NCBI GenBank assembly: GCA_029067085.1
Contig: JAIEFE010000008.1
Coordinates: 1 to 64,000 of the forward strand
DNA from: Lachnospiraceae bacterium
GTDB taxonomy: Bacteria; Bacillota; Clostridia; Lachnospirales; Lachnospiraceae
Length of the DNA: 64,000 nt
Direction: 5' to 3'
The notes under the pieces were generated by a model, which was not told the origin of the DNA, did no database searches, and saw only the letters and a list, made by a program, of their open reading frames with translations. Below, in pieces: positions 43,153-45,293 of the stretch (positions are counted from its first letter, which is position 1; each line of letters opens with the position of its first letter). Both the position numbers and the translations under genes were made by a program.

Positions 43153-43926
43153 TTACGTTCTCCATATAAAAACATCAATCATTGCCGCAGCAACCACAAT
43201 ACAACCTTCACAGAGAAGGACAAAATATCCCGCCGTATCGCCGGTAATCCCCCCAAATTCTTTCCTGCTCTTATAAAAATAATAAACAAACGCTGACACA
43301 GCCGTCGCCGCCACAATCAAACCTGCCGGAAATGACCAAAAACACATTAGTCCGATGCATAACGCGCTTTGTATCAACAACGACCCTTTCACGATTTTTT
43401 TATGGGAACTGTCCACGAAGGTATAAAGCATCCCATCCTTTTTCGCCAAAGGAAAGGACACGGCGCTGATACCGCATAAACAGCGTGACAGGAAAAACCC
43501 GCAGCATACAATCTTTAACAGTGCCGCATCTGCTATCTCTAAAAATGCTCCCAAAAATACCAATCCATAGACAGCAAGCATGATAACTGCAAACGCCCCG
43601 ATATGGGAATCCTTTAGAATTTCCAATTTTTTTTCTTTGGAGCTGTAAGAATGTATGGCATCCATTGTATCCATGAATCCATCAACATGAATCCCACCTG
43701 TAATAAAGATCGGAACAGCCATTGTTACCGCAGTTCTGCACAAATCTCCAATAGGATATGCGCCAAAAAAACAGTTCCAGAAATAAATACAACCGCCGAC
43801 CAGTGCACCAATCCATGGAAAAAAACAAAAGACATATTTCATATCATCTTCTTTCCAGTCAAAAACCGGAACAGGAATTTTAGAATACATGGATACTGCT
43901 ATAAAAAAAGACTTTATCACCTGCAT
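43153..43926 (-). CDS. cobS: Adenosylcobinamide-GDP ribazoletransferase
   Basis: SMYSKIPVPVFDWKEDDMKYVFCFFPWIGALVGG...GGIHVDGFMDTMDAIHSYSSKEKKLEILKDSHIGAFA. Confidence 0.95.
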   Translation of the reverse strand: MQVIKSFFIAVSMYSKIPVPVFDWKEDDMKYVFCFFPWIGALVGGCIYFWNCFFGAYPIGDLCRTAVTMAVPIFITGGIHVDGFMDTMDAIHSYSSKEKKLEILKDSHIGAFAVIMLAVYGLVFLGAFLEIADAALLKIVCCGFFLSRCLCGISAVSFPLAKKDGMLYTFVDSSHKKIVKGSLLIQSALCIGLMCFWSFPAGLIVAATAVSAFVYYFYKSRKEFGGITGDTAGYFVLLCEGCIVVAAAMIDVFIWRT

Positions 43927-43948: not shown

Positions 43949-43977
43949 TATTTTATAACTCCCTTTTCGGAAAAATG
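43949..43977. repeat. Left copy of about 29-bp imperfect inverted repeat flanking the QueG-like gene
   Basis: + strand TATTTTATAACTCCCTTTTCGGAAAAATG; matches the reverse complement of 44729-44757 at about 24 of 29 positions by eye. Confidence 0.75.
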
Positions 43978-44012
43978 TTCCCATAAGCTATTCTACAAAT
44001 AGAAAGTTGTTG

Positions 44013-44681
44013 TTACGTTCCGATCGGGCAAGCAACCATACAAAGGCCGCAGGCATTTTTTCTTCCATGTGTTTTAATATATAAACTTCTTTTTTCGTTA
44101 CATAACCTATAATCTATTATATCACTTCTTAAGGAGTTGATATCCCATTGCACATCATGCAACGCTTTGTGTGGACAAACATCAACACATTTTTTACAAT
44201 TTTCAGGACAATTACTCTTTAAGATTTTATTACCATAAATAAATTTCTCATCTATTAAGATTACAGATAGTCTTACTCTTGGTCCATATTCTTTTGTAAT
44301 AACAACATCGTTTTTCCCAATCCAACCTAATCCAGCATTTACTGCCGCAAACTTGAAAGAAAAAGGGGCTATCAAATCCGTCTCGTTGTTTTGTGCTATA
44401 GGTGGAATATAATATTTCACTTTATATTCATCAAGCGCATTTTGCAGTTGTGTTAAAATTTTTTCCAGTACTTTTTTTGCATCTTGAATACCCTTTTCAA
44501 ACTTTTCTTCAGAATATGTTTCGATTGTAAGTTGTTCCCCGTAAGGTACTGCAAATACTAAAGCAGATTTATATGTACTTGCATATTCACTGTACGCAAT
44601 ATTTGTAAATCCATAAATAACTTCGGGATATTCTAAAAATATATTGCGAATATTCTTTTCAACCATACTAACTTCCTCCAA
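44013..44681 (-). CDS. QueG-like (epoxyqueuosine reductase family) double 4Fe-4S protein
   Basis: AAVNAGLGWIGKNDVVITKEYGPRVRLSVILID; CPENCKKCVDVCPHKAL and CGLCMVACPIG clusters. Confidence 0.82.
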   Translation of the reverse strand: MEEVSMVEKNIRNIFLEYPEVIYGFTNIAYSEYASTYKSALVFAVPYGEQLTIETYSEEKFEKGIQDAKKVLEKILTQLQNALDEYKVKYYIPPIAQNNETDLIAPFSFKFAAVNAGLGWIGKNDVVITKEYGPRVRLSVILIDEKFIYGNKILKSNCPENCKKCVDVCPHKALHDVQWDINSLRSDIIDYRLCNEKRSLYIKTHGRKNACGLCMVACPIGT

Positions 44682-44705
44682 TTCAACTATCGATTGTTAG
44701 TATAA

Positions 44706-45293
44706 TCATAACCTGTTTTTAATGAGTACACTATTCCGATAAGGGAGTTTTAAAATCACCGGAATCCCTGCTACCACTTCCACTACCTGATCAGCCAATG
44801 CCGCAAGTTTTTGATTGATCATTCCCATTGCATGTATATACTCCGTTGTCGTTTCATCATAGGTATTTCCATCTTCAAATACGTTATTGCTTACCACAAC
44901 CAAATGATTCGTCTGTTCTTTCAACATCTTTATATCTTGTGTTATATTTTCCGCAACCTGCATTTTTGTTTTAGCATTTTCCTCTGAAAACATTTCATTT
45001 GCTGTCAAGTTAGAGATACATTCTAACAAAGCAAGGCTGTCTCCATCCCCCATTTTTTCTAGTGCATCAGAAATCCGTGTCGGCTGTTCTATCGTGAAAA
45101 AACCTTTTCCCTTTCTGAGATTCCTGTGTCGTTCAACCTTATCTCGCCCTTCTTCATCAAAAACCTGCATCGTTGCAAGATAATATTTTTTCATTGCGAT
45201 TTCTCCTACACTTTCCTTTGCAAGAGAAACAGCCACCTCTTCCGCATAAGAGGATTTACCGCTTCCACTTCCCCCAACAACCAAAACCATCAT
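44706..45293 (-). CDS. cobU: Adenosylcobinamide kinase / guanylyltransferase CobU
   Basis: MMVLVVGGSGSGKSSYAEEVA...VVVSNNVFEDGNTYDETTTEYIHAMGMINQKLAALADQVVEVVAGIPV. Confidence 0.93.
   Translation of the reverse strand: MMVLVVGGSGSGKSSYAEEVAVSLAKESVGEIAMKKYYLATMQVFDEEGRDKVERHRNLRKGKGFFTIEQPTRISDALEKMGDGDSLALLECISNLTANEMFSEENAKTKMQVAENITQDIKMLKEQTNHLVVVSNNVFEDGNTYDETTTEYIHAMGMINQKLAALADQVVEVVAGIPVILKLPYRNSVLIKNRL
44729..44757. repeat. Right copy of the inverted repeat, within the cobU 3' end
   Basis: + strand CACTATTCCGATAAGGGAGTTTTAAAATC; inverted relative to 43949-43977. Confidence 0.75.

Follow-up and report, generated by a model that had tools for sequence, protein, structure and literature searches.

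The question raised by this locus is how a QueG-like gene came to lie between cobU and cobS in a B12 operon. In the window, by which we mean the whole stretch of 64,000 nucleotides that was analysed, cobU occupies 44706..45293 (minus strand; PF02283) and cobS 43153..43926 (minus strand; PF02654), and the gene between them is bracketed by inverted repeats. Both repeat sequences were confirmed at 43949-43977 and 44729-44757. Of the 12 inverted-repeat pairs in the region, the best joins 43950-43984 with 44722-44756 (35 nt, 83% complementary), and the runner-up reached only 20 nt and 80%. No other ORF lies between the repeats, and a windowed GC check gave about 31% for the QueG-like ORF stretch against roughly 40-50% across most of the surrounding operon. 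Thus, the description in an earlier note of an AT-rich stretch, in which the repeats bracket the QueG-like ORF alone, is accurate.

The repeat as drawn in that note is real, but it mixes transposon ends with flanking sequence; the ends proper start at CTCCC (43959 and 44747). These termini were fixed with the help of L045 (AAAAATAA) and L049 (TTGATTTA), two elements whose 8-bp duplications are perfect. The two repeat ends are of different types, which could be told apart only through comparison with other elements. The end sequences are asymmetric (A, CTCCCTTTTCGGAAAAGTGTTCCC; B, CTCCCTTTTCGGAATTGTGTACCC), with family A and B ends differing at 3 of 24 positions, and end types were called from three positions. 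In the window, the A end (CTCCCTTTTCGGAAAAATGTTCCC; 43959..43982, plus strand) matches the family A end at 23/24 positions and lies downstream of the cargo gene. The B end (CTCCCTTATCGGAATAGTGTACTC; 44724..44747, minus strand) matches its family counterpart at 21/24 and lies upstream. The same end sequences were found elsewhere in congeners as head-to-head pairs.

A target-site duplication, of which no clear sign had been noted before, is present after all. It is formed by the outermost 8 bp of the two repeats, TTTTATAA at 43951..43958 and TTTTAAAA at 44748..44755 (both plus strand), and was overlooked because its palindromic look led to its being mistaken for repeat. The ends and the duplication are slightly degraded, the two copies agreeing at 7/8 positions and not 8/8. 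The unit at 43959..44747 (789 bp, no strand assigned) has three of the features asked of a mobile insertion cassette, namely IS-type terminal inverted repeats, a target-site duplication and a passenger gene without a transposase; the fourth, mobilisation in trans by a related transposase, is inferred, with a candidate enzyme pair identified.

Empty sites in congeners allow the insertion to be reconstructed. Joining the flanks around a single copy of the duplication gives a cobU that ends in ...GIPVILK plus a stop codon, with cobS following 22 bp on. In congeners with adjacent cobU and cobS, CobU mostly ends in ...GIPVxIK and cobS begins after 10-50 bp. In the window, the original end of cobU (...GIPVILK*) has been displaced by the insertion, and DNA of the B end (44706..44747, minus strand) is read as a new CobU tail of 13 residues, LPYRNSVLIKNRL, followed by a stop; this tail is a translated transposon end. 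The coding sequence of cobS and the purine-rich stretch upstream of it are uninterrupted. The right repeat was confirmed to encode the C-terminal tail of CobU, and the LPYRNS tail is absent from CobU of the congeners examined. These comparisons support both the proposed insertion, at the cobU/cobS junction, of a cassette of about 0.8 kb that lacks a transposase and the new C-terminus that it gave CobU. The observations that would have refuted them, the same gene order with diverged flanks or the tail without the cassette, were sought in congeners and neither was made. The empty junctions also exclude the QueG-like gene as a native member of the cob operon.

Read in the same frame, B ends of other elements give the tail LPFRNCVP and A ends LPFRKSVP, and such tails close several neighbouring reading frames, one of them Fic-like (likeness judged by eye). 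Additionally, the same cobU/cobS junction is occupied in another species (G021, locus L008) by a different insert, palindromic and MITE-like and about 200 bp long.

The cargo frame spans 44013-44681 on the minus strand with a TTG at 44681; the ATG common to homologues lies at 44666, so that the gene is taken as 44013..44666 (217 aa). Its product has a double 4Fe-4S domain (PF13484), with two 4Fe-4S clusters, and a distant likeness to QueG and reductive dehalogenases. As the match to TIGR00276 (QueG) is partial and weak, with 49.5 bits against a cut-off of 200, the criterion for QueG is not met and we call the gene QueG-like only. Values of dN/dS of 0.11-0.23 against the four nearest homologues indicate purifying selection. 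In the congener G011, another species, an 88% (aa) relative at another locus has kept a decayed B arm, which suggests that the QueG-like gene travelled as a cassette elsewhere too. That it lies inside a B12 operon is best explained by where the cassette happened to insert. A definition of the element by its QueG-like gene was rejected, since most close homologues (L003, L005, L006) lie outside recognisable cassettes and most cassettes hold other genes.

Elements with these ends are widespread, so that the cassette is one of a large family, a fact that the window alone could not reveal. A/B-type ends are present in 36/77 genomes of the genus, and a reversed control pattern gave no match in any of the same 77. 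The ends also occur in at least 119 genomic stretches of the public genome collection, mostly from Lachnospiraceae; many of the genomes surveyed are metagenome-assembled. Among 79 distinct end pairs, compiled without a duplication filter, 74 combine A with B. Perfect 8-bp duplications flank 51 of the 79 pairs and 7/8 duplications another 11 (62 in total), against an expectation of 3.7% from shuffled flanks, and the duplicated target sites of related pairs are strongly AT-rich. Related elements measure 159-1716 bp, a 5.6-kb element excepted; a 4294-bp pair (L094) was treated as spurious. In the window's own genome no second good copy was found, and a solitary A-like end (21/24) on contig 5 was the sole match. 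A search of open-access papers, which left subscription papers and ISfinder aside, found no match to the end sequences. A large pool of one-gene cassettes with common ends exists across gut Lachnospiraceae and has apparently not been described. A/B-type ends were also seen in four IMG/VR viral contigs (L269-L272), one of which has an A+B pair about 0.6 kb apart.

Movement of these cassettes is inferred and not directly demonstrated by our data. A 768-bp cassette, 97-99.7% identical between copies, occurs in seven genomes (one titled Erysipelotrichales) at seven unrelated sites, where the flanks are non-homologous and the duplications differ. Other cassettes are likewise near-identical at unrelated sites in two or three genomes each. 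A cytidine-deaminase-like cassette found in three congeners (L059, L065, L112) has the same site and the same duplication in each, and we regard it as one old inherited insertion. Some elements are composite: L233 (342-1997) equals L227 plus about 210 bp closing with a second A end, and L220 (5926-7413) and L085 (4747-10363) also have two ends of the same type, with the duplication fitting the outermost pair. We infer that use of the more distant end would be a simple way of capturing neighbouring DNA.

Most elements carry one gene, and about 40 unrelated cargo proteins were seen. According to Pfam, they include GNAT, NUDIX, cytidine deaminase, histidine phosphatase, methyltransferase and CAAX protease families, as well as TfoX_C, HTH, a kinase-like protein, DUF4291 and DUF3795; other cargo proteins have no family. 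Defence genes gave only scattered matches, mostly to candidate families. Judged by the longest ORF, the cargo runs from B to A in 55/56 elements and in 36/37 independent cassettes. The two arms also differ in promoter-like motifs. A TTG at the -35 position lies within the end in 36 of 38 independent B arms and in 1 of 38 A arms, and its combination with a near-perfect -10 was found in 13/38 B arms and in no A arm. From these patterns we infer that in some members of the family the B arm supplies the cargo with a promoter; the fixed polarity would then be explained. In the window, the putative pair is TAGTGT-17-TATGAT (44705..44733, minus strand), a weakened form of the family's TTGTGT-17-TATAAT. 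A generic promoter scan of the window neither picked up this pair nor revealed an excess of promoters, so the claim rests on the family statistics.

Only one complete element with transposase genes was found, L085 (5617 bp, perfect duplication AAACATAA). Its layout is B-tnp-Mrr-tnp-A: two IS1595-type transposases of 413 and 423 aa, about 37% identical to each other, with an Mrr-type nuclease between them. Both transposases score above the NF033547 cut-off, and there is a match to NF050000 (the zinc-binding N-terminus of IS1/IS1595). L085 thus has the transposase domain with a zinc-binding N-terminus and the 8-bp duplication expected of IS1595, but not the single transposase gene with which that family is described (PMC5704250, PMC8101967); two genes with an Mrr-like gene between them occur in two genomes. 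The second of these holds the transposase-Mrr-transposase trio plus an A end, and in one further genome an Mrr-like protein lies beside a more distant transposase. In another genus, a 61%-identical transposase begins just inside a variant B end, GTCCCTTTTCGGAATTGTGGGTCT, which is also present on cassettes such as L047 and L132. As a side observation, loci with an IS1595-like transposase and Mrr are L085, L125 (3280-6947) and L276 (5720-7399), and the two-transposase arrangement is apparently new. In the first two, the Mrr protein has a PD-(D/E)XK-type motif (GGVD...QCK) that seems intact by eye.

Such transposases are rare. Those of the L085 group were found in 4/77 congeners (one a fragment) and 1/299 genomes of the family, and the second transposase in 0/392 genomes of the order. 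None of the L085 group was found in the window's genome, which is 83.6% complete, and a search for the transposase in that genome, plasmids, phages and viral contigs gave no close relative.

We conclude that 43959-44747 is very probably a mobile insertion cassette, with one cargo gene between an A and a B end, and hence a DDE transposon that is not autonomous. An IS1595-type enzyme acting in trans is inferred, because the transposase-bearing L085 has the same ends and encodes two such transposases. On this model, the transposase would recognise the A/B end pair. What the sequence itself shows is that the cassette entered the last codons of cobU, duplicated 8 bp of AT-rich target and shifted the cobU stop codon, leaving CobU to end in 13 residues from the B end. 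The earlier suggestion of excision or inversion by recombination between the repeats found no support, and the evidence favours DDE-type transposition in trans; such recombination was dropped from consideration, being neither evidenced nor needed.

The mobiliser could be another enzyme, given how seldom L085-group transposases occur and that the search of the window's genome found none. The same cassette family might then be moved by an unrelated transposase, in which case the IS1595-type genes of L085 would themselves be cargo or belong to a nested element. In favour of this, A/B ends far outnumber transposases of this group, and L085 has two A ends and extra cargo. We consider this improbable, though not to be set aside, because the transposase starts close to the B end in L085, about 200 bp inward, and immediately within the variant B end in the other genus, and because that variant is common to the transposase locus and to cassettes; 8-bp duplications are also consistent with IS1595 (PMC8101967). 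Far less credible is the view that an ordinary insertion sequence once had its transposase replaced by a host gene and survives as a dead relic, outside any mobile cassette pool. The slight degradation of the window's ends and duplication would suit a relic, but this view is contradicted by the dozens of unrelated cargo genes that one pair of ends encloses and by cassettes that recur almost unchanged at unrelated sites. Short inverted repeats arise easily in AT-rich sequence, and hence might flank by chance a gene inherited in the cob operon; the end sequences, the duplication, the empty sites and the family data leave next to no room for this.

Returning to the cassette moved in trans, a broader proposal may be made only tentatively, and it may well prove wrong. 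Lachnospiraceae might hold a large, integron-like pool of directional, promoter-bearing one-gene cassettes, moved in trans by two IS1595-type transposases (perhaps one per end type) and an Mrr-type nuclease whose role could be second-strand cutting, like that of TnsA in Tn7.

Ordinary annotation overlooks this mobile-gene system of abundant gut bacteria, since A/B cassettes have no transposase close by. Such insertions are easy to spot by their two 24-bp ends or by the tails LPFRNCVP and LPFRKSVP encoded there. The cassettes give single genes a route between species, perhaps between orders, and in CobU the C-terminus of a core metabolic enzyme has been rewritten by a transposon end. With its double transposase, the rare full element renders the mechanism testable.

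Integron gene cassettes are short, promiscuous one-gene units of fixed orientation, with cargo that includes GNAT, NUDIX and unknown proteins. A/B cassettes resemble them in their short one-gene format, orientation and cargo classes. Unlike integron cassettes, they are bounded by inverted repeats of DDE type, lie within target duplications at AT-rich sites that are scattered, form no array, and in part seem to carry their own promoter. Mobile insertion cassettes are known from MIC231 of Bacillus cereus, with IS231/IS4 ends (De Palmenaer et al. 2004, via PMC3129680 and PMC2266710). The two systems are alike in having transposon ends, a passenger gene, no transposase and expected mobilisation in trans. 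They differ in that the ends and the candidate enzyme of A/B cassettes are of IS1595 type, and in that A/B cassettes have two distinct ends, carry many different single cargo genes of near-fixed polarity and occur in many species. Passenger genes are also known from IS1595 elements, for example the transporter-IS members tISCpe8 and MTnSag1 (PMC5704250, PMC8101967). L085 shares with them a transposase with a zinc-binding N-terminus, and 8-bp duplications and passenger genes are also in common; unlike IS1595, the cassettes lack any transposase, and L085 has two IS1595-type genes and an Mrr-like nuclease. Finally, TIMEs and MITEs are non-autonomous inverted-repeat elements able to mobilise DNA (PMC4133298), whereas most A/B elements hold a coding gene and only the smallest (159-243 bp) are MITE-like.
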